Shown piece after piece: positions 1-59,174 of a stretch of DNA of 64,000 nt. Made by a program: the position numbers and the translations under genes. The number at the start of each line of letters is the position of its first letter. The first letter of the stretch is position 1. The notes below the pieces were generated by a model. That model searched no databases. It had not been told where the DNA came from and was given only the letters and a program-made list of their open reading frames with translations. This DNA is from Terriglobia bacterium (GTDB lineage: Bacteria; Acidobacteriota; Terriglobia; UBA7540), in NCBI GenBank assembly GCA_020073545.1, contig JAIQEZ010000006.1:1-64000 (forward strand). The letters are read 5' to 3'.

Positions 1-1055
1 CGCCAAGCGATGACGAAACTCGTCACCAGAATGTTCAGCAAGCCCACGGGCAGCAGGAATTTCCATCCGAGAGACATGAGCTGGTCGTAGCGGAAGCGCG
101 GAAGCGTGCCGCGCATCCAGATGTAGAAGAACAAGAAACAAAACACCTTCAGGCAAAACCAGAAAATGGGGAGAAGCATCCGCAACGGCGCCGGTCCGAA
201 CACGGGGCCATGCCAACCTCCAAAGAACAACAAGGTAGCGAGGCAGGAGACCGTCACCATGTTGGCATACTCCGAGATGAAGAACATGGCGAACTTCATA
301 CTGCTGTACTCGGTGTGGAAGCCGCCGACCAGCTCCGTTTCACCTTCGGGCAAATCAAAAGGCACGCGATTGGTTTCCGCCACCGCTGCCGTGAAGTAAA
401 CGAAGAAACCCACCGGCTGAACGAAGATATTCCAATGGGGCAGCCAGGTATTTACGCCCGCGATATGCCAGAAACCGCCTTGCGCGTCTACGATCCCGCG
501 CAGGCTGAGCGTACCCGCAATCATCAGCACGCCGACTACGGCCAATCCGAGAGAAAGCTCGTAACTGATCATCTGCGCCGAAGACCTTAGTGCGCCGAAC
601 AGGGGATACTTGCTGTTTGAGGACCATCCCGCGAGCGCGATGCTGTACACGCCCAGGGAGGTGACCGCAAAGACAAACAGCAGGCCTACATTCAGGTCCG
701 CGATTTGAAACTCAATCGGATGTCCGTGGAAGTTGAAACCCTCGCCGAAGGGGATTACGGAGATGGAAAGAAATGCCAGGACAAATCCCAGAAAGGGCGC
801 CAGCCAGTAAATCACCCGGTCGGCCTCGAGGGGCACGATATCTTCTTTCAAGATGAACTTTATGCCATCGGCCACCGGTTGCAGTAACCCATGCGGGCCC
901 ACGAGGTAGGGTCCCCAGCGCGCTTGAATGTGGGCCACCACCTTGCGCTCCAGCCACGTCAGATACGCGATGCTGGTCAACAAAGAAACCAGGACGACCG
1001 CGACCTTTACGCCCGCGACGACAAGGAGAAATTCCGTGTCAGAAAATGTGCCCAT
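1..1055 (-). CDS. nuoH: NADH-quinone oxidoreductase subunit H (partial, 3' end outside window)
   Basis: Membrane subunit of complex I that joins the quinone-binding site to the proton-pumping arm. The frame is open from an ATG at 1055 to the window edge (about 351 codons, nearly full length). The translation shows the family signatures WLERKVVAHIQARWGP near the N-terminus, GVYSIALAGWSSNSKYPLFG in the middle, and the conserved loop AAVAETNRVPFDLPEGETEL, followed by several hydrophobic helices. The start overlaps the 3' end of nuoG by 17 bases, so the two are translationally coupled. The stop codon, and any nuoI and later genes, lie beyond base 1. Confidence 0.95.
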   Translation of the reverse strand, partial: MGTFSDTEFLLVVAGVKVAVVLVSLLTSIAYLTWLERKVVAHIQARWGPYLVGPHGLLQPVADGIKFILKEDIVPLEADRVIYWLAPFLGFVLAFLSISVIPFGEGFNFHGHPIEFQIADLNVGLLFVFAVTSLGVYSIALAGWSSNSKYPLFGALRSSAQMISYELSLGLAVVGVLMIAGTLSLRGIVDAQGGFWHIAGVNTWLPHWNIFVQPVGFFVYFTAAVAETNRVPFDLPEGETELVGGFHTEYSSMKFAMFFISEYANMVTVSCLATLLFFGGWHGPVFGPAPLRMLLPIFWFCLKVFCFLFFYIWMRGTLPRFRYDQLMSLGWKFLLPVGLLNILVTSFVIAW

Positions 1056-3390
1056 GTGGTCTCTTGGCTTCGTCGACCGAGTTCAGCGCCCAACTATAGC
1101 GGCTCAACGTTCCAGATGTGAAGAGCGAATCTCGGGAAGAGAAAATCAAATCTGCGCTGGCGAGCTCCGGTGGCGTCCCGGCCGGCTGTGTCGCGACAGC
1201 GCGGCCGATGAGCAAGTTCGGCAGCGCAATCGCGTAGCCAGGCACCTGCGCGATGATTTCCCTTAGCACGTCATCAGAAGACTGGTAAGCCCACTTGTGG
1301 CCCAGCCGTCCTGCCAGCGCAAGCAGGATTTCTAAATCACTTCGCGTGCCCGCCTTCCGCATGGGTTTTTTCAAAACCTGCACTTGGCCGCAGCTGTTCG
1401 TTACGGTGCCGGACTTTTCCGCGAAGCTCGTCGCCGGCAGGACCACGTCGGCGGCCTCGGCTGTCTCGGTCGGAAACAGTTCCGCCACCATCAAAAAGGC
1501 CAATTTGCTCAGTTGCTCCTTGGGAAGGTGGAAGGTCTTGACAGGATTTGATCCAAAAACCAGCAGTGCCTTGATCTCACCCGATTGGGCACCTTGCAGG
1601 ATCGAGCGGATGTCGCGGCCGGGCTCCGTGGGTATTCTGAATTGCCAGGCAGCTTCGAAGCGTTCGCGAGCAGCCTGCTCCGGGAGGGGCAGGTAACCCG
1701 GCAATACGTCGGGTAACAACCCCATGTCGGCGGCCCCGCGGGAATTGGCATAATCGCCGAGCGCCACGAAGCGAGTACGACCGGGAAGCGCAAGTCCCCA
1801 GCGAACCAGGTCCGCCACGTCCTTCCCGCGGATCTCGTCACCGAAGATAATGACCGTATCGGATTCCTCCAGCAGCCCTTCGCGGAAGGAGTCGAAATCG
1901 CCGGTGCCGCCAACCACCAAGCCGGCGTGAGGCGCTTGAATTCCCGCCAAGGCCCGAATCGCGTCGGGCTCTCCACTCGTCCTGACGGTGACGCTGTGAG
2001 TTGCCTGACGTTGCAACTTGATTTCGCGGCTATTCAGCAAGTACAGATGTGCATTGTGCTGACGAACAGCCTGGCGAATCTGATAAGCGACCAGCGGATG
2101 CTGGTGGGTCGGGTCGTTGCCGACCACGAGAATGCTCGGAGCCTCGTAAATGTTCTGGATGGTCGCGTAGCGGTCGGTCGCCTTCACTTCCGTCAAAGCG
2201 CGCACCAGGGAACCGTAATCGGCGGTGCGGTGGTGGTCGAGGTTGTTGGTTCCCAGCACCGTGCGCGTCAAGCGGCCGAGCAGATAATTCTCCTCGTTTG
2301 TGGTGCGATTGGAGCCAATTACGGCGACCGAGGCCGGCCCGTGCTGCTTCAGGACGTCGTTGAGGCGATCGGCCACAACGCCCAGCGCTTCCTCCCAGGT
2401 TCCGGATTCCTGTTTGCCATTCTTGCGGATTAGTGGGGCCGTCAGCCGCTGGTCGCTGTTGACGAAGTCCCAACCAAACCGGCCTTTGACGCAAAGGAAC
2501 TCACCGTTGAAGCCGGAGTGGTCGCGGTTGTTGGCCCGGACGATTTCGTTGTTGCGCACCGAGAGTGTTGTCTTGCAGCCGTCGCCGCAGTGGTTGCAGA
2601 TGGTGCCCGAGTAGGTCATTTCCCAGGGGCGGGTCTTGTAGCGATAGGTGCCACTGGTAAGCGCGCCGACGGGGCAAACGTCAATGCACATTCCGCATTC
2701 TTCGCACTCCAGCTTCTCGCCGCGGTTCGGAATGATCTCGCTGTGCGCGCCGCGAAAGCCGATGCCGTAAGCATTCACGTCAAGGCCCTCGTCGCAAACC
2801 CGGACGCAGCGATAACAAAGGATGCACCGGGGCCAATCATAATAAACCAGGCTGGAAAACTTCCGTTCTTCATGGTGGAGCTTCGGTTCCATGAAGCGCG
2901 TCTCCGCCGCGCCATAGCGGAAGACCGCATCCTGCAGTTCGCACTCGCCGCCTTTGTCGCAGACGGGACAATCGAGCGGGTGATTGGTGAGCAGGAATTC
3001 CAGCATCGCCTTGCGGGCGTTCTTTACTTCCTCGGTCTCCGTGTGGACGACCATGCCCTTGGCGACGACCGTGGTGCAGGCGGTCTGGAGCTTGGGCATC
3101 TTCTCAATCGCCACCAGACACATGCGGCAGGCGCCTTGGAGCGTGAGGCCGGGATAATAGCAGTACGAGGGGATTTCAATCCCCGCTTGCTTGGCGGCTT
3201 CAATGAGCAGCGTCCCCGCGGGGACCTTCACTTCTTTACCGTCGATCGTCACGCTTACCGGTTCAGCGGCGGGGTTTAACTGTGGAGAAAGGCTCGGACT
3301 GCGAGTGTAGGGTCCCGGGACGTGGAGGTTCTCCGGCTTGGGGGGCAAGTCCAGGATGACGAACTGCGATTTGTGCGTCTGGTCTTTCAT
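1039..3390 (-). CDS. nuoG: NADH-quinone oxidoreductase subunit G
   Basis: Peripheral iron-sulfur subunit of complex I that relays electrons from NuoF/NuoE towards the quinone. It has 783 residues. After a Pro-rich N-terminal stretch of about 45 residues comes a [2Fe-2S] ferredoxin domain (C77, C88, C91, C105), then the His-Cys3 cluster (H137, C141, C144, C150) and two 4Fe-4S motifs (C189/192/195/199 and C229/232/235/239). A further CxxCxxxC...C set (C265, C268, C272, C300) would hold the optional N7 cluster. The rest is a molybdopterin-oxidoreductase-like domain. Its ATG overlaps the nuoF stop by 4 bases, and its end overlaps nuoH. Confidence 0.97.
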   Translation of the reverse strand: MKDQTHKSQFVILDLPPKPENLHVPGPYTRSPSLSPQLNPAAEPVSVTIDGKEVKVPAGTLLIEAAKQAGIEIPSYCYYPGLTLQGACRMCLVAIEKMPKLQTACTTVVAKGMVVHTETEEVKNARKAMLEFLLTNHPLDCPVCDKGGECELQDAVFRYGAAETRFMEPKLHHEERKFSSLVYYDWPRCILCYRCVRVCDEGLDVNAYGIGFRGAHSEIIPNRGEKLECEECGMCIDVCPVGALTSGTYRYKTRPWEMTYSGTICNHCGDGCKTTLSVRNNEIVRANNRDHSGFNGEFLCVKGRFGWDFVNSDQRLTAPLIRKNGKQESGTWEEALGVVADRLNDVLKQHGPASVAVIGSNRTTNEENYLLGRLTRTVLGTNNLDHHRTADYGSLVRALTEVKATDRYATIQNIYEAPSILVVGNDPTHQHPLVAYQIRQAVRQHNAHLYLLNSREIKLQRQATHSVTVRTSGEPDAIRALAGIQAPHAGLVVGGTGDFDSFREGLLEESDTVIIFGDEIRGKDVADLVRWGLALPGRTRFVALGDYANSRGAADMGLLPDVLPGYLPLPEQAARERFEAAWQFRIPTEPGRDIRSILQGAQSGEIKALLVFGSNPVKTFHLPKEQLSKLAFLMVAELFPTETAEAADVVLPATSFAEKSGTVTNSCGQVQVLKKPMRKAGTRSDLEILLALAGRLGHKWAYQSSDDVLREIIAQVPGYAIALPNLLIGRAVATQPAGTPPELASADLIFSSRDSLFTSGTLSRYSWALNSVDEAKRPHGHIF

Positions 3391-4721
3391 GCGACGCTCA
3401 CTGCCTTCTTCTCATAAGGGCAGTAGCCGAGCTTTAGATGCTCTTCGAACTCGTGCCGGAACTTCTGGAGGATGCTGATGGTCGGCATCGCGGCGGCGTC
3501 CCCCAGCGGGCAGAGGGTCTTGCCCAGGATGTTGTAAGCAACGTCCAGCGCCGTGTCAGGATCGTCGGGAAGTGCGCCGCCCGAATGAAAGCGCTCGAGC
3601 AAACGCTTCAGCCAGGAAGTTCCTTCGCGGCAGGGAATACACCAGCCACAGGATTCGTGCGCGTAAAACCTCATGATGCGGCCTGCAACCTTCACCATGC
3701 ACGTGTCCTCATCCATGATGACGACCCCGCCGGAGCCCAGCATGGAACCGATCTTGGCGACGGAGTCGTAATCCATAGCCACGTCGATTTCCTCGGCAGT
3801 CAGCACCGGGCACGATGAGCCACCGGGAATCACGGCCTTGAGCCGCTTGCCGCGCGGTACGCCGCCACCGACTTCCTCGATCATCCGGCGCAGGGGAAAG
3901 CCCATCGGCAATTCGTAGATTCCTGGACGCGAGATGTGGCCACTCAAGCAGAAAAGGCGCGTGCCGCCGTTCTTGGGTGAGCCCAGCTTGGCGTACCAGC
4001 CTGCGCCGTTCAGGATGATGTGAGGAATATTGGAAAGCGTTTCTACGTTGTTGATGACGGTCGGCCCGCCGTAGAGGCCCAAGACCGCAGGAAAGGGCGG
4101 CTTGATGCGGGGGTAACCGCGCAGGCCCTCCAGGGAATTCAGGAGCGCAGTTTCTTCTCCGCACTCGTAGGCGCCCGCTCCCGTGTGCGTGCAAAGGTCG
4201 AAATCGAAGCCGGAACCGAGAAGATTCTTACCAAGATAGCCGCGCGCGTAGGCTTCCGCCAATGCACGATCCACGATTTCGAGGAGGTAACGATACTCGC
4301 CGCGAACATAGATGAATCCCTGATGCGCTTGAATAGCATAGCCCGAAATGATAATGCCTTCGATGAGCTGATGTGGGTCATACTCCATTAGGGGGCGGTC
4401 CTTGCAAGTGCCGGGCTCGCTCTCATCCGCGTTGCATACCACGTACTTGAGCTTGGCCGATTGCTTGGGTACGAAACTCCATTTCATGCCCGTATTGAAG
4501 CCGGCGCCGCCGCGGCCGCGCAGGCCGGAGTTCTTCACCTCGTTGATGACGTCCTCGGGTTTCGTGGCCAAGGCTTTCTTCAAGGCCTGGTACCCGTCAT
4601 GTTGCAGATAGACGTCGAGGGAGGCCGAGTTGGGTAGGGCAAAACGCTTGCTGATGACCTTCACCTCGAGCGGGCTATTGCCCATCGGATTGTCATAGCC
4701 AGGCATAAGAGGGAACTGCAC
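3387..4721 (-). CDS. nuoF: NADH-quinone oxidoreductase subunit F (NADH/FMN-binding)
   Basis: The 51-kDa-type subunit that oxidises NADH with FMN and holds the N3 [4Fe-4S] cluster. It has 444 residues. The glycine-rich NADH/FMN motif GRGGAGFNTGMKWSF lies near residue 70, and the FMN loop GAGAYECGEETALLNSLEG is near residue 190. The cluster ligands are visible in ESCGWCIPCREGT plus a distal Cys in TLCPLGDAAA. It follows nuoE by 27 bases and overlaps nuoG by 4 bases. Length and motifs are typical, and nothing suggests damage. Confidence 0.97.
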   Translation of the reverse strand: MQFPLMPGYDNPMGNSPLEVKVISKRFALPNSASLDVYLQHDGYQALKKALATKPEDVINEVKNSGLRGRGGAGFNTGMKWSFVPKQSAKLKYVVCNADESEPGTCKDRPLMEYDPHQLIEGIIISGYAIQAHQGFIYVRGEYRYLLEIVDRALAEAYARGYLGKNLLGSGFDFDLCTHTGAGAYECGEETALLNSLEGLRGYPRIKPPFPAVLGLYGGPTVINNVETLSNIPHIILNGAGWYAKLGSPKNGGTRLFCLSGHISRPGIYELPMGFPLRRMIEEVGGGVPRGKRLKAVIPGGSSCPVLTAEEIDVAMDYDSVAKIGSMLGSGGVVIMDEDTCMVKVAGRIMRFYAHESCGWCIPCREGTSWLKRLLERFHSGGALPDDPDTALDVAYNILGKTLCPLGDAAAMPTISILQKFRHEFEEHLKLGYCPYEKKAVSVA

Positions 4722-4748
4722 CCCCCGGGGGGCGTGTCCGGTCCCCTT

Positions 4749-5237
4749 TCAAATTTTCGAACGTGGCTCTTTCTTCTTCAGCTCATCGATGAGCGCGTCG
4801 ACCTTTTCCGGAGTCAGGTTTTCGTAATAGTCGTAATTCACCTGCATCGCTGGCGCCCCGCAGCAAGCTCCCAGGCACTCGACCTCTTCGAGCGAAAACA
4901 GGCCGTCCGGTGTGGTTTGCTTGTGTCCAATTCCAAGCTTCTGGCAGCAGTGGTCGAAGAGCTCGTCGGCGCCCCGCAACATGCAGGAGATGTTGGTGCA
5001 AACCTGAATGTTGTATTTACCGACAGGCTGCCGGTGGAGCATCGAATAATAAGAGATAACTTCCGTGACCTCGATGGGCCGCACGTCCACGCGCCGCGCG
5101 ACCTCCGCGATGACTTCGTCGCTCACATGGCCGACTTCGTCTTGAGCGTAAAGAAGCAGAGGCACCATCGCCGAGCGCTTCAGCGGATAGCGCGTGATGA
5201 TCTGATCGAATTTTCTGCTGAGCGTTTGGGAAATCAT
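4749..5237 (-). CDS. nuoE: NADH-quinone oxidoreductase subunit E
   Basis: The 24-kDa-type thioredoxin-fold subunit of complex I carrying the N1a [2Fe-2S] cluster next to NuoF. It has 162 residues. Cluster cysteines are visible in VCTNISCMLRG and VECLGACCGAPAM, and the N-terminal helical part (LYAQDEVGHVSDEVIAEVA) is typical of the family. It starts immediately after the nuoD stop with no gap and is followed closely by nuoF. The same fold occurs in NAD-linked hydrogenases, but the flanking nuoD and nuoF make complex I the clear assignment. Confidence 0.96.
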   Translation of the reverse strand: MISQTLSRKFDQIITRYPLKRSAMVPLLLYAQDEVGHVSDEVIAEVARRVDVRPIEVTEVISYYSMLHRQPVGKYNIQVCTNISCMLRGADELFDHCCQKLGIGHKQTTPDGLFSLEEVECLGACCGAPAMQVNYDYYENLTPEKVDALIDELKKKEPRSKI

Positions 5238-6434
5238 TTAGCGATCCACTTCTCCCAGTACGATATCGATGGTCCCGATGCAAGCCACGACGTCGGCGAT
5301 CAATCGCCCTTCGATCAGCTTCGGCAAAGCCTGCAAGTTGGCGAAGGAGGGCGCGCGGACGTGGCAGCGGAAGGGTTTCGGCGATCCGTCGCTGACCATG
5401 TAGAACCCCAGTTCGCCGCGCGGCGATTCGATGGCCTGGTAGACCTCACCGACCGGCGGATGGAAGCCCTCGGTCACAATCTTGAAGTGATAGATCAGCG
5501 CCTCGATGGAAGTCTTCATGCTCTCGCGCTCGGGCATGACGATGTGCGGGGCGTTGGCTTTGACCGGCCCGTCCGGCAAGCCTTCCATGGCCTGCTGTAC
5601 GATGCGGAGTGACTGGCGCATTTCCTCGATGCGCACCAGGTAGCGCGCGTACACGTCGCCTGCGGGGTGAGTTGCGACTTTGAAATCGAACTTGTCGTAG
5701 TTTGAATAGGGTTGCTTCTTACGGATGTCCCAGTCCACTCCGGAGCCGCGTAGGGAGGGGCCAGAGAGGCCGTAGGCGATGGCGTCTTCCCCTGAAATGT
5801 ACCCGACGCCCTGCGTCCGGCGCAGCCAGATAGGGTTCTTCGTGAGCAAGGCCTCGTATTCGTCGATGCGTTCGGGAAACATCTTCACGAATTTCTCGAC
5901 GTGCTTCAGCCAGCCCAGTGGAGGCTCAAGCGCCAGCCCCCCGATCCGGAAGTAGCTGGTCATCATGCGCTGGCCGGAGACGGCCTCAAAAATGTGCAAA
6001 ATATCCTCGCGCTCGCGGAAACAATAAAGGAAGACCGACATGGCGCCGATGTCGATGGCGTGGGTGCCCAGCCACACCAAATGACTTTGGATACGCGTCA
6101 GTTCGGTGAGCAGAACGCGAATCCACTGCGCGCGCGGCGGAATTTCGAGATCGAGCAGCTTTTCCGTCGCCAGGCAGAATCCCAGGTTGTTCGAGAGTGG
6201 GGCGAGGTAATCGATGCGGTCGGTGAGGGTAATCCCCTGGGAATAGGTCATGCTCTCGAAGGATTTTTCGAAGCCGGTGTGCAGATACCCGATATCATAG
6301 AGGCTACGCACGACGGTCTCACCCTCCAGCTCGAGCACCAACCGCAACACCCCGTGCGTCGAGGGGTGCTGCGGGCCCATGCTGAGGATGACCCGTTCCG
6401 CTTTGCCCGGAATTCTTTCCAGTGTGACCGGCAT
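5238..6434 (-). CDS. nuoD: NADH-quinone oxidoreductase subunit D
   Basis: The 49-kDa-type subunit forming the quinone-reaction chamber of complex I, related to [NiFe]-hydrogenase large subunits but without their metal cysteines. It has 398 residues. It opens with the family hallmark MGPQHPSTHGVLRL and contains the conserved GYLHTGFEK and DRIDYLAPLSNN segments. It ends at VVACIGTIDIVLGEVDR, the expected C-terminus. The gene abuts nuoC upstream (stop at 6435, start at 6434) and nuoE downstream. Translation is probably coupled along the whole run. Confidence 0.97.
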   Translation of the reverse strand: MPVTLERIPGKAERVILSMGPQHPSTHGVLRLVLELEGETVVRSLYDIGYLHTGFEKSFESMTYSQGITLTDRIDYLAPLSNNLGFCLATEKLLDLEIPPRAQWIRVLLTELTRIQSHLVWLGTHAIDIGAMSVFLYCFREREDILHIFEAVSGQRMMTSYFRIGGLALEPPLGWLKHVEKFVKMFPERIDEYEALLTKNPIWLRRTQGVGYISGEDAIAYGLSGPSLRGSGVDWDIRKKQPYSNYDKFDFKVATHPAGDVYARYLVRIEEMRQSLRIVQQAMEGLPDGPVKANAPHIVMPERESMKTSIEALIYHFKIVTEGFHPPVGEVYQAIESPRGELGFYMVSDGSPKPFRCHVRAPSFANLQALPKLIEGRLIADVVACIGTIDIVLGEVDR

Positions 6435-6908
6435 TTATCGATAACCCTCAGTGGGGTAGTCTTTGCGCAACGGGTGGCCTTCCCAGTCTTCGGGCAGCAG
6501 AAGCCGCTGCAGGAAGGGATGACCCTCAAAGACGATTCCGAACAGATCGAACACCTCGCGCTCAAAGGCGTTGGCGGAAGGCCAAACGGGAACGGCGGTG
6601 TTGGCGCGCGGATTCTGGCCCGAAACACGAATATTCAGGCGCAGCCGCTCGGCAGTTTCGATCGAGAGCAGGTGATACACAACCTCGAAGCGCGGTTCCT
6701 GGGGGTAAAGGTCCAACGCTGTGACGTCCGCGAGGAAACTGAACTTGAGCCCAGGCTCATCGCGGAGAAATTCGCAGGCCCGGATGAGATGGGCCGGCCG
6801 GATGTAGAGCGTTACCTCATCGCGGAAAGCGCGCGCATCTTCAATCGCCTCCGGGTCATATTTCTGCAATTCCTTGAAAGCCAAATTGTTTGCTAGGTCG
6901 GCGGCCAT
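6435..6908 (-). CDS. nuoC: NADH-quinone oxidoreductase subunit C
   Basis: The 30-kDa-type subunit, a structural partner of NuoD in the connecting module of complex I. I chose the ATG at 6908 (157 residues, MAADLANNLAF...) rather than the longer open frame to 7001, whose extra N-terminal residues are low-complexity and unlike the family. The signature is visible as NAFEREVFDLFGIVFEGHP followed by LPEDWEGHPLRKDYP. In most nuo operons nuoB lies just upstream. Here the next 420 bases hold a MITE-like element and no nuoB. Confidence 0.93.
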   Translation of the reverse strand: MAADLANNLAFKELQKYDPEAIEDARAFRDEVTLYIRPAHLIRACEFLRDEPGLKFSFLADVTALDLYPQEPRFEVVYHLLSIETAERLRLNIRVSGQNPRANTAVPVWPSANAFEREVFDLFGIVFEGHPFLQRLLLPEDWEGHPLRKDYPTEGYR

Positions 6909-7091
6909 AGAGGTTGGTTCAGAATGCAGGGCGAGAGGTTCGCTTCGTCCGCGCGCGCAGTCGGAGTTGTTGCTGCACGCTCCGGCTTCTCGTCTCTGCA
7001 CGAAAATCCCAACAAGCGCGCGAAGGACGAGCCTTTCCTCGTTCAGATCCTTCCGCGCGATAGCCTGGTGGCCCTGGCGGTCGCCAAGAAG

Positions 7092-7334
7092 CTAGCGCCG
7101 TTCCAACTATTTCGAGCGATTCTCCAGGAGCCAGGTTGCCAGCCTTTGCCGCAAGTACTTTTCCCTCTGCCGGTCTTCAGGTATCGCTCTCGCCTGCGCC
7201 CATCCGCTTCGAGCCAACAGGCTTCATAGTAAGCCAAGCGCAGCGGCCACCTCTGCCGGGTCGACTCCACCCGTCCTTGAGGCTAATCAGAACGTACGTG
7301 CAAAACCTAGGCCAACAAGTTGGAACGGCACTAG
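7092..7334. mobile_element. MITE-like element A (nuoC-nuoA junction)
   Basis: A 243-bp segment. Both ends carry CTAG (7092-7095 and 7331-7334), which reads as a 4-bp target duplication. Inside these are terminal inverted repeats of 13 bases, (C/T)GCCGTTCCAACT, with one mismatch between the ends. No transposase gene fits inside. Copies with the same ends lie at 14082, 36387 and 48416. The YTAR-type target is characteristic of the IS5 group, so I infer a non-autonomous IS5-like derivative. The right-hand CTAG supplies the TAG stop codon of nuoA. Bases 6909-7091 next to it contain no recognisable gene. Confidence 0.7.
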
Positions 7335-7699
7335 CGGGTCCACTCCAGAGCGCCTTTTTTCCAGATATAGATGTACCCGGCTAGTAAGATGGCGATGTAC
7401 AAGAACATCTCGACGAAGCCGAACCACTTCAGGCTCTTGAAAACTACGGCCCAAGGATAAAGAAACACCGCCTCGACGTCGAACAGGATGAAGAGCATCC
7501 CCACCAGATAGAAGCTGACTGAAAAGCGTTCACGGGCGTTGCCGACAGGAGGAATCCCGCACTCATAGGGAGAGAGTTTCTCCCGCGTGGGCCGCTTCAC
7601 CCCCACCCACCAAGACAACCCCAGGAGGGCCGAAGCGAGCACCACAACCGCCACAAAATGCAGCAAAACAGGGATGTAAAGTCCAGCCATTGCAGTCAT
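7331..7699 (-). CDS. nuoA: NADH-quinone oxidoreductase subunit A
   Basis: Small membrane subunit of complex I, 122 residues, with three hydrophobic helices and the conserved loop SPYECGIPPVGNARERFSV. The typical LFILFDVEAVFLYPW helix follows. It can start at 7699 or at the second ATG three codons on. It is the first gene of the operon, downstream of a strong sigma-70-like promoter at 7736-7765. Its TAG stop lies exactly in the CTAG that bounds MITE-like element A, so the insertion preserved the reading frame and the natural end. Confidence 0.95.
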   Translation of the reverse strand: MTAMAGLYIPVLLHFVAVVVLASALLGLSWWVGVKRPTREKLSPYECGIPPVGNARERFSVSFYLVGMLFILFDVEAVFLYPWAVVFKSLKWFGFVEMFLYIAILLAGYIYIWKKGALEWTR

Positions 7700-7735
7700 T
7701 TACGGGGACTTTTGCGTGTCTGCCCCAAGCCCAAA

Positions 7736-7765
7736 ACTATACGAGGCGGCTCCGAGTAGTGTCAA
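7736..7765 (-). promoter_or_regulatory. Sigma-70-type promoter of the nuo operon
   Basis: Read on the minus strand, TTGACA (7765-7760) is followed by an 18-base spacer and TATAGT (7741-7736). This gives a perfect -35 and a 5-of-6 match at -10, about 37 bases before the nuoA ATG. It is the best sigma-70 match seen in this intergenic region and points away from the divergent gene at 7848. Confidence 0.65.
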
Positions 7766-7847
7766 GTTTTTTCTTGCCTGCGTGGGGTGGAGTCAGTAAC
7801 ATTTGACGTATTCAATCAGGGCGTTGGCCAGCCCTAGGACGCGAACC

Positions 7848-8120
7848 ATGGTGATGGGGTTCAACACCGACATCGAACGCGACGGCGTGGTATATCACAT
7901 TCAGACAGAACCTCGGAAAAACGCGGGGATCGAAACCACGGTATACACGCAGGGCGCCGTCATCCACAAGTTAAAGAGTTCTTACCAGGACTTGCTGAAC
8001 TCTCCCGGTTTCAGTGATGAGAAATTGAGGCGCCGATTCGAAGACCAGCATCGACAGGTTATCGCGCGCATTCGCGCAGGCGAGATCAACCCCCCTGCTC
8101 AACAGGCGAGTCCTTCCTGA
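7848..8120 (+). CDS. Conserved hypothetical protein
   Basis: A small soluble protein of 90 residues with no signal peptide or membrane segment. Its N-terminal half (MVMGFNTDIERDGVVYHIQT...) looks like a compact beta-rich domain, and its C-terminal half is charged and probably helical (LRRRFEDQHRQVIARIRAG). I chose ATG 7848 because AGGA lies about 8 bases upstream; ATG 7854 is the alternative. I cannot name a function. It lies 13 bases upstream of the ThiS-like gene and could be co-transcribed with it. Confidence 0.7.
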   Translation: MVMGFNTDIERDGVVYHIQTEPRKNAGIETTVYTQGAVIHKLKSSYQDLLNSPGFSDEKLRRRFEDQHRQVIARIRAGEINPPAQQASPS

Positions 8121-8133
8121 CCTGGAGTCCCCG

Positions 8134-8373
8134 TTGATTGCCATGCATCTGAACGGAGAATTGCGCGAGGTCCCCGAAGGGCTGAACTTAGCCGCTTTGC
8201 TCGATTGGCTCAAGTTGCCCGCTGAGCGCGTGGCGGTGGAGCGGAACCTGGAGATCGTCCCTAGGTCCAGATGGGGCGAGACGATCATCCAGGCCAACGA
8301 CCGTTTGGAAGTGGTACACTTTGTGGGCGGCGGCAAGTTTGTCCTCACCGCGCCCTTCCGGGGCAGGGAATAA
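8134..8373 (+). CDS. thiS: ThiS-like sulfur carrier protein with C-terminal extension
   Basis: Ubiquitin-fold (MoaD/ThiS) protein, 76-79 residues. The start is either TTG 8134 (good spacing from GGAG) or ATG 8143. The pattern MHLNGELREVPEGLNLAALL, VERNLEIVPRSRW and the terminal NDRLEVVHFVGGG matches ThiS, the sulfur donor for thiazole synthesis, which is adenylated and thiocarboxylated on its last glycine. Here 12 more residues (KFVLTAPFRGRE) follow the glycines. Unless a protease removes them, the protein cannot be thiocarboxylated. No thiG or thiF is nearby. It might instead serve another sulfur-transfer route. Confidence 0.75.
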   Translation: MIAMHLNGELREVPEGLNLAALLDWLKLPAERVAVERNLEIVPRSRWGETIIQANDRLEVVHFVGGGKFVLTAPFRGRE

Positions 8374-8448
8374 GACCGGGCGACCCGGAACGTCGAGGGG
8401 TCCCGCCTGCGGGAGCAAGGCTTCGCGCCGAGTGTTTCGACTCTTGAA

Positions 8449-9795
8449 ATGAACCCGATCACCCACAACCCTCCGCCTTTCACGCTTGTTGACCTGCTGA
8501 TCAAGTTGGCGGTCATCGCCCTGTTGGCGGGTTTTGTCGCGCGCTTCGGAAAGTTCCGACGCCTGTTGTTTATCGAGCAACGGGGACCGCGAGAGAAGTT
8601 ACAGTTTGCCGCATTTCTGGGCGTGCCCTTTATGCTCGGCGTGTTGGCACGCTTGCTCGCGCACTATCCGACCACGGACCTGAGCCTGGAAGTTACCGTC
8701 TTGGCGGGACTGCTGGGGGGGACAATCGTCGGCTTGGTGGTGGCAGCGATGGTCAGCCTGCCTGCTGTGCTGATTGGCCACGAAATCTTGGCCACACCCA
8801 TGGCCGTGCTTTTTGCTCTGGTCGCCGGTTCGGCACGCTGGGTATGTCCTGACAAGGAAGAGATCTGGAAGTTCTCGCCGTTTATTGATCTAAGCCTGTA
8901 TCGATCGATCAAGCAGAGGTTCAGGCACCCAGCCATCGACTGGCAGGTGCTCTTTTGGCTGATCTGCGTCATCCTGGAAATCCTTCGCATGACGGTGGGG
9001 CACATGGCCCACGGCAGGTTGTTCTACCCGGATTCGCCGCACGCCTCCACCCGGGTGCTGATCGTGCTCGCCACGCTGATCGGCGTCGGCCTGCCGGTGC
9101 GCATCTGGAATACCACGCGCATCGAACGGAGACTGCAGGAACAGGAGAGAATGCTGTTGCAGGCGCGCATGGACGCCCTGATCAGCCAGATCAATCCCCA
9201 CTTCCTCTTTAATACCCTAAATACGGTTTCGTCGCTCACGCGCTTCGATCAGGACACCGCACGCAGGGTGCTGCTGAAGCTGGCGAATATTCTTCGCCGC
9301 CGACTTAAGGCCCAGATTCACTTTACGCCCCTCAAACAGGAACTGGAGTTTATCGACGATTACCTGGATATCGAAGTGGTGCGCTTTGGGCGCGACAAAC
9401 TTCAGATCCGCAAGGAAATTGAGCCCGAAACCCTGGACATGGTCGTACCCAGCATGATCTTGCAGCCGCTGGTCGAAAATGCCATCCGCCATGGGATTGG
9501 GCCGAAGGTGGAGGGGGGCACGATCACGCTGCGAGCCAAGCGTGGCAATGGGCGTTTGATGATCGAGGTCATCGACGACGGCGTGGGCATTCCGGAACAG
9601 AGGCAGAGCGAAGTTTTCGACAGTGGTATTGGCATCAGCAATGTTCGCGAGCGGCTGAAGGTGCTCTACGGCCAGGACTTTGCTTTCAAGATCGAGAGCC
9701 GGCCAGGGCAGGGCACCGCCATCCGTTTTGAGATTCCCGAGTTGATTACTTCGCTTCCTGCGGTGCCGATGGAGACTGCACAGGTGTCGTCGTGA
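8449..9795 (+). CDS. LytS/YehU-type sensor histidine kinase
   Basis: Membrane sensor kinase, 448 residues. The N-terminal half (to about residue 225) has several hydrophobic helices, consistent with a membrane sensor region. The phospho-acceptor motif of the His_kinase family is clear: ALISQINPHFLFNTLNTVSS near residue 250. The ATP-binding domain has LQPLVENAIRHGI (N box), VIDDGVGIP and GIGISNVRERL. Such kinases normally work with a LytTR response regulator, but none is adjacent, so it is an orphan here. The preceding 75 bases hold no recognised promoter. Confidence 0.9.
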   Translation: MNPITHNPPPFTLVDLLIKLAVIALLAGFVARFGKFRRLLFIEQRGPREKLQFAAFLGVPFMLGVLARLLAHYPTTDLSLEVTVLAGLLGGTIVGLVVAAMVSLPAVLIGHEILATPMAVLFALVAGSARWVCPDKEEIWKFSPFIDLSLYRSIKQRFRHPAIDWQVLFWLICVILEILRMTVGHMAHGRLFYPDSPHASTRVLIVLATLIGVGLPVRIWNTTRIERRLQEQERMLLQARMDALISQINPHFLFNTLNTVSSLTRFDQDTARRVLLKLANILRRRLKAQIHFTPLKQELEFIDDYLDIEVVRFGRDKLQIRKEIEPETLDMVVPSMILQPLVENAIRHGIGPKVEGGTITLRAKRGNGRLMIEVIDDGVGIPEQRQSEVFDSGIGISNVRERLKVLYGQDFAFKIESRPGQGTAIRFEIPELITSLPAVPMETAQVSS

Positions 9796-10119
9796 GGAAG
9801 CCTTTCCACAGGGCATTGCGCATCCAAGCGGCAAAGCCAACAGGAGGGAGAGATCCCCAACGAACAACCTTTGCCGCCACTTGCGACCTCTAGAGTGAAG
9901 AACCTGTGCTAGTATTCTGCAGTTGCGCGCGGAGGTTGATTTCGGGAGCTGCTCCGGGGACGCGCGCCGCCAGGGTTCGGGCCACGAACTGGCCGCGCGG
10001 CTCGGGTAAGGCAACGGTCCCAGGCGCTCCCCGGTTTCACAGGGTGCTGGAATAGGCCGTAGACTGCTGAAACGGATTTGAAGCTCAATCGTCTTGACTC
10101 CAAGGAGCGAGGATTCCCT
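9796..10119 (+). other. Intergenic region with possible structured leader
   Basis: No gene is seen in these 324 bases. An extended -10 like sequence (TGCTAGTAT, ending near 9915) is followed by about 200 bases of very GC-rich sequence. Between about 9957 and 10005 this can form a strong hairpin around GTTCG-GGCCA-CGAAC. I could not match it to a known riboswitch, RNase P, 6S RNA or tmRNA. Confidence 0.3.
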
Positions 10120-10458
10120 ATGGCGAAGGACGGGCCTGAGGGCAAGAAAGATCCCCCGGCTTCGATGAGCATGATCGAGCCGCGTGTGCGCGAAATCTAC
10201 AAAGCCTTTTACAAGCAAAGCTACTTTACTCCTTCCGCGCTCGATCTGAAAACCAAGGAACTGATTGCCATCGGTTGTTCCCTTCTGGCGAAGTGTGAGG
10301 GCTGCCTGGAAGGACACATCAAGAAAGCGCTGGAAGTTGGCGCCACCAAGCAGGAAATCAGCGATGCCATTGTGATTGCCATAGGCATTGGCGCCGCGAG
10401 CGCCATGGACATGGCCGATAAGGCTGCCATCGAGCTCGACCTTCATCACTTCGAGTAA
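10120..10458 (+). CDS. AhpD/carboxymuconolactone decarboxylase-like protein
   Basis: A 112-residue alkylhydroperoxidase-like protein. The CxxC redox pair with the downstream His (CEGCLEGHIKKALEVGA) is the AhpD-fold signature, followed by the alanine-rich helix EISDAIVIAIGIGAASAMDM. ATG 10120 is chosen for its GAGGA about 6 bases upstream; the open frame extends further upstream only from a TTG. Proteins of this family often act as peroxidases or general redox disulfide enzymes. No partner gene (such as ahpC) is nearby, so the substrate is unknown. Confidence 0.88.
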   Translation: MAKDGPEGKKDPPASMSMIEPRVREIYKAFYKQSYFTPSALDLKTKELIAIGCSLLAKCEGCLEGHIKKALEVGATKQEISDAIVIAIGIGAASAMDMADKAAIELDLHHFE

Positions 10459-10502
10459 GGGTCGAAGGGTTTTCCCGTAAGCTTCCCGGGCACTGATATC
10501 CT

Positions 10503-11741
10503 TTGAAAGCCAGACGCCGGCTGCGGATTGCTTCCGAAGCCCGCGCGCACCAAGGACCGCGAGTGGACTGGCTGGTGATTGCCAATCTCTTCCTCCTGCT
10601 TTTCCTGGGCTTGGCTGACAACCAGATGATCGCAGCGCTCTTGCCGTCGCTGGTGAGCTCGCTCGGCATCAGTCTTTCGACGGCGGGATTGCTGGTTGTT
10701 GCGTATTCGGTGGCTGCGGCGGTGGCGGCGTTTTTCTCGGGGACACTCTCGGATCATTACGGTCGGCGACGGTTTCTGCTGGCCGGAGTTATGTTTTTTG
10801 CCGTGGCTTCCTGGGGGGCCTCGCAGAGCAGGACCTTCGTGGAGTTATTGCTCGCACGCGCTCTGACGGGCCTGGCCGCCGGAACGCTTTCCACGTGCTC
10901 AATCACTTTTGCCGCGGACTGGTTCGCCTACACCGTGCGCGGTCGCGCCATCGGACTGATTTCTTCCGCTTACTTTGCTGCGCCCATCCTGGGTGTGCCG
11001 ATTGCCGCCCAGGTTGCCGACCGCTTCGGCTGGCGCCAGGCGTTCCTGTTCTTCGCGGTCCTGGCGGTAGCGACTGCGCTCGTCTCGCTCAGCCTGCCCA
11101 AGGAGCGGTTGGACCCGTTGCCCTCCACGGCCAAGTTGCGAAGTGCGGTCGAGGCTTTTCGTTCCTTCCTTTCGCGGCGTGATACGGTGGCGGCACTTGC
11201 CATTGCCTTTCTGGTGTCCGGTGGCTTGGTGGGTTTTCTCACCTATATTGGCCAGTGGCTGAACAGCAGCTTTGATCTTCCCACTCGGACGATCGGCTGG
11301 GTTTTCATGCTTGGGGGTGTCGTGGCCGTCGGGAGCGCTCCCCTGGGGGGAATTCTCTCAGACCGCTGGGGTAAGCGCGGCATTTCGATCGCCAGCAACA
11401 TCCTGCTGGCGATAGCGGTGGCTTTCGTCCCGTTCTTCCCGTGGGGTTTGGGACTGCTGGTGGTTTTCGGTTTCGCCAGCCTGGGCGCGGCGTTCCGACA
11501 GGGGCCGTTGACTGCGCTGATGACGGAGCTCGTGCCCGCCGCGCAACGTGGCTCGTTCATCGCGCTGCGAAATATCTCTTCGCAGCTTGGGATCGGAGTT
11601 GCCGCTTACGCGGGCGGAGTACTTTTCCAGCAGTACGGGTACGTCGCCGTCACTTCGCTGTGTGCGGTGATGACCGCCGTGGTGGCCATCCTCCTGGGAA
11701 CACACATTGTCGAACCGGGGGGCGCAGAGGGGCGCTTGTGA
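10503..11741 (+). CDS. MFS transporter
   Basis: Major facilitator superfamily permease, about 412 residues, with around 12 hydrophobic segments. The inter-helix motif between TM2 and TM3 is visible as GTLSDHYGRRRFLLAG, and a second related loop GILSDRWGKRGISI appears in the C-terminal half, as expected for two six-helix bundles. The start at TTG 10503 is uncertain; a GTG at 10562 just before the first helix is an alternative. Drug or small-metabolite efflux is the usual role of this subfamily, but the substrate cannot be read from sequence. Confidence 0.88.
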   Translation: MKARRRLRIASEARAHQGPRVDWLVIANLFLLLFLGLADNQMIAALLPSLVSSLGISLSTAGLLVVAYSVAAAVAAFFSGTLSDHYGRRRFLLAGVMFFAVASWGASQSRTFVELLLARALTGLAAGTLSTCSITFAADWFAYTVRGRAIGLISSAYFAAPILGVPIAAQVADRFGWRQAFLFFAVLAVATALVSLSLPKERLDPLPSTAKLRSAVEAFRSFLSRRDTVAALAIAFLVSGGLVGFLTYIGQWLNSSFDLPTRTIGWVFMLGGVVAVGSAPLGGILSDRWGKRGISIASNILLAIAVAFVPFFPWGLGLLVVFGFASLGAAFRQGPLTALMTELVPAAQRGSFIALRNISSQLGIGVAAYAGGVLFQQYGYVAVTSLCAVMTAVVAILLGTHIVEPGGAEGRL

Positions 11742-11835
11742 GAGCGGCGGCACGGGGCCTGGGCGGTTCTCGGAGGGAAGAACCTTCAACACTCAGGGAA
11801 TGCTGATCAAGGTGAGATCAGAGCAGGAGGAGAAT

Positions 11836-12765
11836 GTGGTGTCCCGGTCAAGAATCTGGAAGACGGTGCGGAATGTTTTGTTGATTCTAGCGCTACTGGT
11901 TGCTGGCTTTTTCCTAATCTTCGTCCCTTGGTTCTTCAGCAAGATGGCCGCCTACCATCAGTTTCACTATCCCGACCCGAATGACGGCAAGACGCCGAAA
12001 TCCTATAACCTCGAATTCCAGTGGGTGGATTTCCACTCGCCGGATGGAATCCCGCTCAAGGGCTGGTACATTCCTGCTCAAGGTTCTGCGCGCGGCACGA
12101 TCATTTATTGCCACGGGCTCAACCGCACGCGAATCGAGATGCTGCCCGACGCCGTGTTCGCGCACAGCCTCGGTTACAACGGGTTGTTGTTCGATCTCCG
12201 CCATCAGGGCATGAGTGGCGGCGGCATTACTACGTTGGGTTATCAGGAACGATGGGACGTGGAGGGCGCCGTGCGTTTTGCGCTCAAGCGCGAGAAGGCC
12301 GCCCGGCCCGTCATTCTGTGGGGAGTTTCGATGGGTGCATCGGCGACGCTGATGGCGGCGGCCGAAACGCCGGACGTTGCGGCAGTGATCTCCGACAGCT
12401 CTTTCGATTCTCTGATGGGCACCGTTCGGCATCACCTGACGCTGTTCCTGCATCTGCCGGCGTTTCCGATTGCCGACGAGGTTGGTTATTGGACGGCGTG
12501 GCGCGGCGGCTTCCGGCCTGCGGATTTCGATCTTGTGCAGGCTGTGGAACGGGTGGGTGACCGGCCCATTCTCTTTGTCGCCGTCGAAGGCGACCGACGC
12601 ATGCCGCCCTCCATTGCGCAGACCCTCTACGCGCACGCCCGGAGCCCGCTGAAGAAGATCGTCATCCTGCCCGGGCATCGTCACGGTGAGGGGTTTAACC
12701 AAGCGAGGCAACCTTATGAAAAGGCGGTTACGGATTTCCTGGCGGGTCTTCCCGCCGGGGAGTGA
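11836..12765 (+). CDS. Membrane-anchored alpha/beta hydrolase
   Basis: Serine hydrolase of the alpha/beta fold. I place the start at GTG 11836 (or 11839), preceded by a strong AGGAGG at 11825; upstream ATG 11800 lacks a comparable site. An N-terminal hydrophobic segment (VLLILALLVAGFFLIF) anchors it, with the catalytic part outside or at the membrane. The nucleophile elbow GVSMGAS, an acidic residue in AVEGDRRMPP and a terminal His in LPGHRHGEG make a plausible triad. The oxyanion region is YCHGLNRTR. It resembles BAAT/YfhR-like esterases of unknown substrate. Confidence 0.85.
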   Translation: MVSRSRIWKTVRNVLLILALLVAGFFLIFVPWFFSKMAAYHQFHYPDPNDGKTPKSYNLEFQWVDFHSPDGIPLKGWYIPAQGSARGTIIYCHGLNRTRIEMLPDAVFAHSLGYNGLLFDLRHQGMSGGGITTLGYQERWDVEGAVRFALKREKAARPVILWGVSMGASATLMAAAETPDVAAVISDSSFDSLMGTVRHHLTLFLHLPAFPIADEVGYWTAWRGGFRPADFDLVQAVERVGDRPILFVAVEGDRRMPPSIAQTLYAHARSPLKKIVILPGHRHGEGFNQARQPYEKAVTDFLAGLPAGE

Positions 12766-13011
12766 TTCGAGAAATTAGGCAATCATGCGTTCCGACTCAG
12801 AGTGAGGCGAGGTTGCCGGTACCTTTGGTGAGGTTTTACATCCCACCCATGTAATCTTTTCCTGAAAGCAAGCGACCAGAATCCGACACCACATTCCAAC
12901 TGACTGAAACACAAACCCGTGGTACATTTGGAGACCCACGTGCGTAGACCTGCATGGGGGGTAGGGCAACTTAATGACAATCTAATTTTAGGGAGGCTGG
13001 GATCCGACCGC

Positions 13012-14085
13012 ATGCGGACTGTAGAGGGCTTCTGTCTACTGGAAATCTCCCCTGAGGAATTCAAGCGCCGGAGGATCTCCTTCGCGATAGGGTGCGCTGT
13101 TGAGACAGCAGGTATTGGTTTGCTTGTGCTGGCGGGTGTATGGTTTCCGTACCGAGTATCGCAGCACGTCAATCGGTATGTACTCATAAGCCTTCCTTCC
13201 CCAGCCGAGGAATGGCCCATGTTGAAGGCCTGCCCACTGCCGAGGGCTGTGGCGCGGAAGATCGAGCCGCCAAAGCCCCTCGCGCCCCCCGTTGTGCCAG
13301 TGCTCCCTGTTGACGCTCCAGGGATCGAAGAGCCGGAGATCCACGCCAAGCTTCCTGTCCCGAACGTGAGTAGACAGCTGCAGTCAATGGCGGCTGTCGC
13401 TCCACCCAGCCCGCCCCCCTCGCGGCCACGCCCAACTGTTCACCCGGGTCTCTTTGGTCAGGTGGAGGGACACGCGGTGAGCGAGAGGACTCCCTTAAAG
13501 CAGGTACAGACAGGTGGTTTTGGCGATCCTGAGGGGCTGCCGGGCCGAGCACAAGCTGGGAATCCAGGAAACGTGCCCAAGCTTGGAGCTTTTGATTTGG
13601 CGGCAGGCCCCGGCAGAGGAAACGGAATCGGTGGGTTGCAGGGAAGCCCGCGAACCGTTGCCGACACGGGATTCGGGGGTGGTGGCGTGGGTATTGGAGT
13701 GAGTCGGGGGCCTGGCGGGGGCGCTCCTGCCGCTGTGAAGACAGGCGTCTTCGGTGCCGCGCCTGAATCGACGCAAGCACCCGTGAAGTCGCTGCGCGCG
13801 GCGCCTCCTGCCCCGGAAACCCAGCCTGTGGAGGTCCTTTTCAAGCCCTCGCCACAGTACACCGAGGAAGCGCGGCGACTGCGCGTGGAAGGCGAGGTTG
13901 TGCTGTCCGTGGTCTTCCAAGCCGACGGCACCCTCAGGGTGGTGGGCGTGGTGAAGTCCCTCGGGCATGGGTTAGACCAGATGGCGGAGCAAGCCGCTTC
14001 ACAGATCCGCTTCAAGCCGGCAGAGCAGGCCGGCAAGCCGGCGGATTTTCCGGCCACGCTGCGCATCGCATTCCGGTTGGCCTAG
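13012..14085 (+). CDS. TonB-family energy-transducer-like protein
   Basis: About 357 residues from ATG 13012, with GGGAGG roughly 15 bases upstream. One N-terminal hydrophobic segment (GCAVETAGIGLLVLAGVWF) is followed by a long Pro/Gly-rich periplasm-spanning linker. The C-terminal TonB-like domain contains YTEEARRLRVEGEVVLSVVF and ends in PADFPATLRIAFRLA. The YP-like motif is SPQYTEEAR. Such proteins couple inner-membrane energy to outer-membrane receptors, but no exbB/exbD is adjacent. Its TAG stop (14083-14085) lies in the CTAG that begins MITE-like element B. Confidence 0.8.
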   Translation: MRTVEGFCLLEISPEEFKRRRISFAIGCAVETAGIGLLVLAGVWFPYRVSQHVNRYVLISLPSPAEEWPMLKACPLPRAVARKIEPPKPLAPPVVPVLPVDAPGIEEPEIHAKLPVPNVSRQLQSMAAVAPPSPPPSRPRPTVHPGLFGQVEGHAVSERTPLKQVQTGGFGDPEGLPGRAQAGNPGNVPKLGAFDLAAGPGRGNGIGGLQGSPRTVADTGFGGGGVGIGVSRGPGGGAPAAVKTGVFGAAPESTQAPVKSLRAAPPAPETQPVEVLFKPSPQYTEEARRLRVEGEVVLSVVFQADGTLRVVGVVKSLGHGLDQMAEQAASQIRFKPAEQAGKPADFPATLRIAFRLA

Positions 14086-14192
14086 TGCCATTCCAACTTA
14101 GTGAAGCTAATATGGTCCGCTTCTCTCCTGCGCAGCATCGACACCCCATCGGGCTTGCGCGGATTAGCCGGAACAAATTGGAACGGCGCTAA
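14082..14192. mobile_element. MITE-like element B
   Basis: A 111-bp segment flanked by CTAG (14082-14085) and CTAA (14189-14192), both fitting a YTAR target. Its ends are TGCCATTCCAACT and, inverted, CGCCGTTCCAATT. It belongs to the same family as the copies at 7092 and 36387. The left CTAG provides the stop codon of the TonB-like gene, as the right CTAG does for nuoA at element A. It encodes nothing and separates the TonB-like gene from the M48 protease. Confidence 0.6.
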
Positions 14193-36386: not shown

Positions 36387-36489
36387 GTGCCGTTCCAACT
36401 ATTTCGGACCAACTCCTGCCACCCATCGGGCCGTGACTTGAGGGAGGAGACAAAAACAATCCCAAGACGCCTTAACTTGGAACGGTACT
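36387..36489. mobile_element. MITE-like element C
   Basis: A 103-bp segment with ends GTGCCGTTCCAACT and, inverted, AGTACCGTTCCAAGT. The left end shares GCCGTTCCAACTATTTCG with element A at 7097. The flanks (CTCG and CTGG) are a decayed form of the CTAG target. It has no coding content. Confidence 0.6.
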
Positions 36490-50436: not shown

Positions 50437-51225
50437 ATGTCGCCGGAAACGCGCCCCAAGCTGGCGGTCTACAAATTCTCCTCTTGCGATGGTTGCCAGT
50501 TGGCGATTCTGAGCCTGGAAGATGAGCTGCTGAGCCTGGTGGGTGAAGTGGAGATCGCCTACTTCTTGGAAGCCCGTTCGCAGACGTTGGAGGGCCCTTA
50601 TGATGTGACCCTCGTCGAGGGTTCCGTGAGCACGGCGGAGGATATCGAGCGAATCCACAAGGTTCGCGAGCAATCGAAGTATTTGATCACCATCGGCGCC
50701 TGCGCCACGGCAGGAGGAATCCAGGCCCTGCGCAACTGGGCGGATGTGGGCGAATTCGTGCGAGCGGTTTATGCCACGCCCGCTTACATCAACACGCTGG
50801 AACAATCCACGCCGATTTCGGCGCACGTGGCTGTGGATTTTGAACTCAATGGTTGCCCCATCAACAAGTATCAAATCCTGGAGGTGCTCACGGCTTTGCT
50901 GGTGGGGCGTGCGCCCCATCTCCCCCGCCACTCGGTCTGCCTGGAGTGCAAGCGGCGTGGCACGTCCTGCGTGATGGTTTTAGGGGGAATCCCGTGTCTG
51001 GGTCCCCTTACGCAGGCCGGATGCGGCGCCTTGTGTCCCGCCTACAATCGCGGCTGCTATGGTTGCTTTGGGCCGATGGAAAGTCCCAACCCGGATTCGT
51101 TCGCCGGTTTCCTGCTGAAGAACGGTACGCCGCGGGCTGAACTCATCCGCATGCTGCGCGGCTTCACCGGTTATGCGGAGGTATTTCGCTCGGCGGGGGA
51201 CAAGCTCGCGAAGACGTCGCCCTAA
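50437..51225 (+). CDS. hydD: Group 3b [NiFe] hydrogenase small (delta) subunit
   Basis: A 262-residue iron-sulfur small subunit from ATG 50437, with AAGGAGG about 10 bases upstream. Cysteines for the proximal cluster are in KFSSCDGCQLAIL and GACATAGGI. Further clusters lie in CLECKRRGTSC and LCPAYNRGCYGCFGPMES. There is no Tat signal, consistent with a cytosolic group 3 enzyme. It partners the large subunit at 51436, separated by a 210-base gap that holds no recognised gene. Confidence 0.93.
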   Translation: MSPETRPKLAVYKFSSCDGCQLAILSLEDELLSLVGEVEIAYFLEARSQTLEGPYDVTLVEGSVSTAEDIERIHKVREQSKYLITIGACATAGGIQALRNWADVGEFVRAVYATPAYINTLEQSTPISAHVAVDFELNGCPINKYQILEVLTALLVGRAPHLPRHSVCLECKRRGTSCVMVLGGIPCLGPLTQAGCGALCPAYNRGCYGCFGPMESPNPDSFAGFLLKNGTPRAELIRMLRGFTGYAEVFRSAGDKLAKTSP

Positions 51226-58164: not shown

Positions 58165-59174
58165 TGACGAAACCTGCCGCAGTCCCCAAGAACCCCAAGC
58201 CCAAGGTCGCCTTTTATTGGTGCGCCTCGTGTGGGGGATGCGAGGAGACCGTTCTGGATCTTGACGAGCGAGTCCTCGACGTCGTCGCCGCGGTCGATAT
58301 CGTCTTTTGGCCCGTTGCCCTGGACTTCAAACGGCACGACGTGGAAGCCCTGCCGGACGGTTCCATTTTGGCGGCCTTCGTGAACGGCGCTGTCCGCACT
58401 ACCGAGCAGGAAGAGATGGCGCACCTTCTCCGTAAGAAGGCCAAGGTGCTGGTAGCGCTGGGTTCGTGCGCACAGCTCGGGGGGATCGCCGGGCTGGCCA
58501 ACCTCTCGTCGCGGGAAGGCATTCTTCAATCCTCTTACTGTGAGTCGCCGTCCACGGTGAATGCGGAGAAAGTATTCCCCCAGACCCTTTACAAAGAGAA
58601 CGGATACTCCGTGAGTTTGCCGGGATTGTTTGAAACCGTGTGCTCGTTGGACCAGGTGGTTGATGTGGATTACTACCTGCCGGGGTGCCCGCCCACTCCG
58701 AAGCTCTTGTGGGATGCGGTCCACGTCCTGCTCGGCGGCGAGCTGCCGCCGAAAGGAACCGTGCTCGCTCCGGACCGCGCGCTTTGCGAGGAATGTCCAC
58801 GCAAGGACACACGCCCCGAAAAGCTCACCTTGAAGGAGTTCAAGCGACCGCAGGATGCTGTCATCGATGAGGCGACCTGCGTGCTGGCGCAGGGCGTGGT
58901 GTGCCTGGGACCGGCGACGCGCAGCGGCTGCGAGGCCCTCTGCCCGCAAGGCAACATGCCGTGCACGGGCTGTTTCGGTCCCACCAGCCGCGTTCGCGAC
59001 TATGGGGCAAAAGCCTTGTCAGCCATTTCTTCCATCATCGACAGCAACGATCCGGAAGAGATTGAAAAGATTGTGCATACAGTTCCCGACCCGGTCGGAA
59101 CGTTCTATCGGTATAGCCTACCGGCCTCGTTGCTGCGGCGCAAGAAGATCGATGAAGCGCTGAAGACGAAATGA
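58164..59174 (+). CDS. mvhG: Group 3c [NiFe] hydrogenase small subunit (MvhG-like)
   Basis: A 336-residue iron-sulfur small subunit with no Tat signal. The proximal cluster motif is FYWCASCGGCEETVLDLDE, followed by VALGSCAQLGGIAGLAN and YLPGCPPTPKLLWDA. Further cluster cysteines lie in EECPRKDTRP and SGCEALCPQGNMPCTGCFGP. The ribosome site GGAGGAGG is in the mvhD 3' end. Its TGA stop (59172-59174) touches the left inverted repeat of the element that separates it from the large-subunit gene. Confidence 0.93.
   Translation: MTKPAAVPKNPKPKVAFYWCASCGGCEETVLDLDERVLDVVAAVDIVFWPVALDFKRHDVEALPDGSILAAFVNGAVRTTEQEEMAHLLRKKAKVLVALGSCAQLGGIAGLANLSSREGILQSSYCESPSTVNAEKVFPQTLYKENGYSVSLPGLFETVCSLDQVVDVDYYLPGCPPTPKLLWDAVHVLLGGELPPKGTVLAPDRALCEECPRKDTRPEKLTLKEFKRPQDAVIDEATCVLAQGVVCLGPATRSGCEALCPQGNMPCTGCFGPTSRVRDYGAKALSAISSIIDSNDPEEIEKIVHTVPDPVGTFYRYSLPASLLRRKKIDEALKTK

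Follow-up and report, generated by a model that had tools for sequence, protein, structure and literature searches.

A nuoB-less complex I operon in a Terriglobia bacterium and its relatives, with a younger inverted-repeat element at the nuoA stop codon

Introduction

The canonical bacterial nuo operon, as in E. coli, runs from nuoA to nuoN. The operon described here shares with it the order of nuoA and of nuoC to nuoH, a nuoL-M-N set on a second contig (C192) and, encoded in the same genome, NuoB and NuoI proteins of the ordinary families; it differs in the placement of nuoB and, by every indication, nuoI, which are found as stand-alone genes on separate contigs. Nitrospina gracilis likewise keeps one core complex I gene apart from its main operon: nuoA-M are reported to form a single operon, with nuoN at a different site (PMC3578206). 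By comparison with that single nuoN, the displaced genes here are nuoB and nuoI, and the pattern extends to most Acidobacteriota loci read and to Methylomirabilota. For most species of Acidobacteriota, complex I is reported to be complete (PMC12361115). Searches of the open-licence literature gave no paper on an Acidobacteriota nuo operon without nuoB or nuoI, which weakly suggests that the arrangement is undescribed.

Gene order in the window

The analysed stretch of 64,000 nucleotides (hereafter the window) comes from a soil acidobacterium and forms the start of contig C179. On its minus strand nuoA (7331..7699, 122 aa) is followed by 422 bp without nuoB and then by nuoC (6435..6908), nuoD (5238..6434), nuoE (4749..5237), nuoF (3387..4721), nuoG (1039..3390) and nuoH (3..1055), the last of which is cut by the end of the contig. 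NCBIfam models name A, C, D, E and F of these; nuoG is a reading frame with 69.5 and 75% identity in the operons of two relatives, and nuoH shows 78-79% identity in two relatives' operons. The nuoB between nuoA and nuoC that belongs to the canonical 14-gene operon is missing from the window, as the initial annotation had recognized. A six-frame search with a NuoB profile covered 16 gap sequences, namely 6909-7330 with a second form of the window gap, and the gaps of 14 relatives; it returned a best E value of about 1, which is the chance level, while an A-B-C-D locus used as positive control scored 4.9e-87. No NuoB remnant was detected in the 183-bp original nuoA-nuoC spacer (6909..7091).

The same annotation credited the operon with a retained strong promoter. 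The sequence in question, TTGACA-18-TATAGT, is present at 7765-7736 with 11/12 matches, but one promoter-like site in the stretch scanned is within chance (0.5 +/- 0.7 expected). Because the reading frames found in the window are intact, the enzyme is likely to be still produced.

The nuoB-less gap in relatives

A search for nuoA orthologues in 40 genomes of the order identified, besides the window, 20 relatives at 65% identity or more. In all 20 (65-88% identical) nuoC comes directly after nuoA, at a distance of 59-194 bp, and no nuoB occurs in the roughly 3 kb of the locus. Altogether 30 nuoA loci were examined (the window, the 20 orthologous loci and nine of other nuoA types), and nuoB adjoins nuoA in three of the nine loci of other types. 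Such a shared gap, with nuoB encoded elsewhere, had been named beforehand as the synteny result that would speak against a deletion in this lineage, and it is essentially what the relatives display.

We extended the comparison with a NuoD scan of named genomes, in which 80 loci were kept among 233 matching and phyla were grouped by record titles; the genomes compared are mostly metagenome-assembled. Among 58 Acidobacteriota NuoD loci, nuoA and nuoC were both seen in 54, and nuoB is missing in 53 of these. The loss of nuoB is not universal among Acidobacteriota operons, because one locus of the phylum (L173) has the order A-B-C-D. None of the four readable loci among five from Methylomirabilota contains nuoB, and a locus labelled Acidimicrobiia (L147) is also without it. 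In Zixibacteria, Eisenbacteria, Chloroflexi and one unclassified bacterium, nuoB lies between nuoA and nuoC in all 16 loci.

nuoI and the distal operon genes

In the complete operons of two relatives, nuoJ starts 6 bp (L201, G010) and 153 bp (L202, G011) past nuoH, with no NuoI between them. When the H-J interval of the named loci was scanned with the query NuoI1, nuoH was followed by nuoJ without nuoI in 30/30 Acidobacteriota loci with both genes seen and in 3/3 Methylomirabilota loci, and likewise in L147; the one wide spacer, 397 bp (L153), coincides with a short nuoH alignment. Five loci of other phyla were readable, and nuoI lies between nuoH and nuoJ in three of them; the two without it are both from Eisenbacteria and retain nuoB. 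Since nuoJ comes directly after nuoH even where nuoB is in place (L173, L179 and L181), nuoI seems, on these few loci, to have departed first and nuoB later.

A search of the genome for nuoI, proposed in the initial annotation, identified a stand-alone gene on the minus strand at C101:14280-14663 (TIGR01971, 137.6 bits versus a cut-off of 113.05) and a second NuoI over the cut-off on C30. The C101 protein contains two 4Fe-4S motifs, matching Fer4 / Fer4_7 in Pfam. Proteins of its type share 74-100% identity across 17 loci (74-94% in 16 other genomes), and its identity to NuoI of 13 canonical loci is 36-51%. The window contig ends in nuoH, and by all signs nuoI lies outside the window-type operon.

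The corresponding search for nuoJ-N was successful in part. A minus-strand nuoL-M-N set on C192 is 69-71% identical to window-type operons (G010; L and M of G011), against 38-53% for the other set on that contig, and on these similarities we take it for the distal portion of the window operon; the assembly yielded neither nuoJ nor nuoK of the window operon, nor the end of its nuoH. A second, scattered complex I comprises nuoA2 (C129), a C19-type NuoB and J-K-L-M-N on the plus strand of C192, and C81 carries nuoD2-H2 with a partial nuoI2 at the contig end and a nuoC-like stretch before. Positions 1-13839 of locus L191 (contig C192) hold two convergent nuoL-M-N sets, of two different complexes I.

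Stand-alone NuoB genes

Five PF01058 matches were found in the genome, two of them inside the window. The TIGR01957 cut-off of 142.7 bits is passed by two proteins, encoded at C105:7429-7854 (239.9 bits; stand-alone nuoB at about 7387-7896 of locus L070) and at C19:15345-15767 (236.5 bits), and a third match, on C4, stays under it with 127.9 bits. The genome thus has nuoB at other sites, as had been suggested, in two stand-alone copies. The C105 protein aligns with chain 6 of Thermus complex I (2fug_6) with an E value of 4.6e-69, and the CC, C and C positions, the ligands of cluster N2, are aligned.

The zinc-binding dehydrogenase gene near the C105 nuoB recurs near this type of nuoB in all three genomes looked at (L070, L195 and L196), and XdhC-type and MobA-type genes lie beyond it; these assignments rest on family matches for all three genes of L070 and for the dehydrogenase of L195, and on translations for the others. 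A small Rieske ferredoxin gene (L069 8835-9203) directly adjoins the stand-alone nuoB of C19. The two PF01058 proteins of the window (50485-50898 and 58230-58721) are not NuoB, because one is far under the TIGR01957 cut-off (24.8 bits) and the other is unlisted; judged by length, they are presumably hydrogenase small subunits.

The probable NuoB partner of the window operon

NuoB proteins of 54 loci were typed by sequence and set against the nuoA types across 40 genomes of the order; seven genomes (G001, G027, G032, G034, G035, G038 and G039) contributed no NuoB typed in this way. Three pairings emerge: window-type nuoA with C105-type NuoB, C129-type nuoA with C19-type NuoB, and canonical nuoA with an adjoining canonical nuoB. 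C105-type NuoB occurs in 17 of the 21 genomes with window-type nuoA, among them all nine with a completeness of 90% or more, and in one genome of 96% completeness (G010) the sole nuoA is of the window type and the sole NuoB of the C105 type. The pairing is imperfect. Four genomes with window-type nuoA, 58-80% complete, lack a typed C105-type NuoB, and C105-type NuoB is present in two of the 19 genomes without window-type nuoA (G009 and G026, both 85% complete), a group in which several NuoB matches were left untyped by sequence. The C105-type clade has a support of 83/99 in a tree that gives kinship among NuoB proteins, not membership of a complex.

From this co-occurrence we infer that the C105 gene encodes the NuoB of the window operon's complex. 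The C19 protein could instead serve the window complex, or both could do so interchangeably; by its TIGR01957 score of 236.5 bits the C19 protein qualifies well as a NuoB, and its gene has the Rieske ferredoxin gene for a neighbour. Against this, two genomes (G010 and G021, 96% and 92% complete) combine window-type nuoA with only C105-type NuoB, C19-type NuoB occurs without window-type nuoA in genomes such as G013 and G025, and NuoB of the C19 type matches the other, scattered complex I. We consider a role of C19 in the window complex unlikely, and C19 was dropped as its partner on the nuoA/NuoB co-occurrence table.

A young insertion at the nuoA stop codon

The gap between nuoA and nuoC contains an inverted-repeat element on the minus strand. 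Its body (7096..7330, 235 bp) has the ends TGCCGTTCCAACT / CGCCGTTCCAACT and carries a decayed GIY-YIG frame, and the terminal inverted repeats (7091-7108 / 7318-7335) are 17/18 complementary. The MITE-like insertion reported earlier is thus real, and the length of 243 bp given for it is close to that of the body. CTAG flanks the element on the nuoA side (7331..7334), where it contains the TAG stop of nuoA (7333-7331), and on the nuoC side (7092..7095).

Locus L040 of G003, the relative whose nuoA comes nearest (88% identical), has an unoccupied site with a single CTAG at the nuoA stop, a 170-bp spacer and no nuoB; the window flanks joined for this comparison omitted five bases beside the target (7091-7095). 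The single CTAG of the empty site versus CTAG on both sides in the window identifies a target-site duplication. Among the 21 orthologous loci the element is present in the window alone, and the window spacer minus the element and one CTAG measures 183 bp, within the 59-194 bp of the relatives. The insertion is lineage-specific and postdates the departure of nuoB from the operon; because the nearest relative has an empty site and already lacks nuoB, the element came later and replaced nothing.

Two other explanations for the missing gene were weighed. The element occupies exactly the place between nuoA and nuoC at which nuoB would be expected; the initial annotation spoke of nuoB as replaced by it, and offered an insertion-linked deletion as one of two alternatives. 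A deletion of this kind in this lineage is refuted by the empty site in L040, itself without nuoB, and by a nuoB-less gap that spans two phyla, Acidobacteriota and Methylomirabilota; the residual spacer of 183 bp lies in the relatives' range and CTAG is duplicated on either side, as for a simple insertion. We regard such a replacement as highly improbable. An assembly artefact, in which a collapsed or chimaeric junction dropped nuoB from the contig, might be considered in a draft genome of 261 contigs with a window contig that ends within nuoH. Against it, the identical A-C junction recurs in the independent assemblies of 20/20 relatives and in named records of many studies. Because independent assemblies show the same junction, a misassembly at 6900-7340 is very unlikely, and we give it practically no chance.

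Proposed history of the operon

We are confident that nuoB (and nuoI) were displaced from the operon long before this species arose, that the element arrived later and independently, and that the C105 and C101 genes supply the two subunits. The operon type is A-C-D-E-F-G-H-J-K-L-M-N, with nuoB and nuoI lost to other chromosomal sites at that early stage. NuoB would be made from the stand-alone gene of C105 and NuoI from that of C101, both of which keep the Fe-S cysteine motifs, and the two proteins would assemble in trans with the operon products. Much later, the small inverted-repeat element inserted at the CTAG of the nuoA stop, duplicating CTAG, regenerating the stop and leaving the genes intact. 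This order of events is drawn from the taxonomic distribution. A link between the mobile element and the loss of an essential subunit gene is not supported, and the case is one of an ordinary enzyme with an old, unusual dispersal of its genes.

The two genes that have moved both specify Fe-S subunits of the quinone module, and the pattern holds in most Acidobacteriota loci read and in Methylomirabilota. NuoB and NuoI could conceivably have been displaced for a reason: as transcription units of their own, the genes would allow the amount or timing of the Fe-S parts to be controlled separately, for example by iron, with nuoI leaving first and nuoB following. We regard this idea as improbable; if it were true, the operon would yield a scaffold, and two further loci would govern its activation. 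Whether the split has regulatory meaning or reflects drift after an old rearrangement is a testable question. The dispersal also carries an annotation risk, in that tools scoring operon completeness may score such bacteria as lacking NuoB and NuoI.

The element family and its GIY-YIG frame

The element shares with bacterial MITEs short terminal inverted repeats, a short target duplication (CTAG), dispersed copies and the absence of a transposase inside. It differs in that the 235-bp window copy and a copy on C240 carry a GIY-YIG frame, most family members being about 100 bp. The C240 copy (C240:3575-3881; L072 3578-3881) is 75% identical to the window element, adjoins the stop codon of the preceding gene and, at about 300 bp, is nearly filled by an intact GIY-YIG nuclease gene between inverted repeats; its protein scores 49.6 bits on PF01541 (cut-off 22.6). 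The open part of the window copy (7043-7270) gave no Pfam match, and its GIY-YIG frame, with 67-70% identity to the C240 protein over 43-45 residues and an internal stop, is decayed and shortened. The short members, with the same ends, are commoner, with 10 strict paired-end copies in the genome. Across the family genomes 40 strict copies were counted, in 10 of 39 genomes, and a reversed-pattern control yielded 0. Two more short copies, slightly decayed, lie in the window at 14086-14188 and 36388-36487, the former positioned right at the stop of a reading frame of 388 codons.

The position at stop codons recurs in the family. We compared 27 distinct elements (L006, L091-L108 and L254-L268), from loci fetched by element or end searches with the strict pattern and perhaps not independent insertions, with 119 control CTAG sites from the window and eight loci of the same genome, which include the CTAGs of the elements themselves. 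Twenty of the 27 elements lie directly at the stop of a frame of at least 90 codons, compared with 44/119 CTAG sites (Fisher P 0.0006), and 16 at the stop of a frame of at least 200 codons, compared with 22/119 (Fisher P 0.00005). Duplication of the CTAG target regenerates the TAG stop codon. CTAG itself is common at stops, and the remaining excess may reflect selection that removes insertions falling within genes.

The GIY-YIG gene was also considered as the mobile unit of the inverted-repeat family. Relatives of the C240 protein were collected at 30 loci, of which 22 aligned and eight gave no alignment; only the C240 and window copies among the aligned loci carry the family ends, and the proposal was rejected. 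At one locus (L204, G029:C276) a GIY-YIG gene lies between the arms of an inverted repeat that is perfect over 16 bp and unlike that of the family; small elements of more than one kind may therefore carry GIY-YIG genes here.
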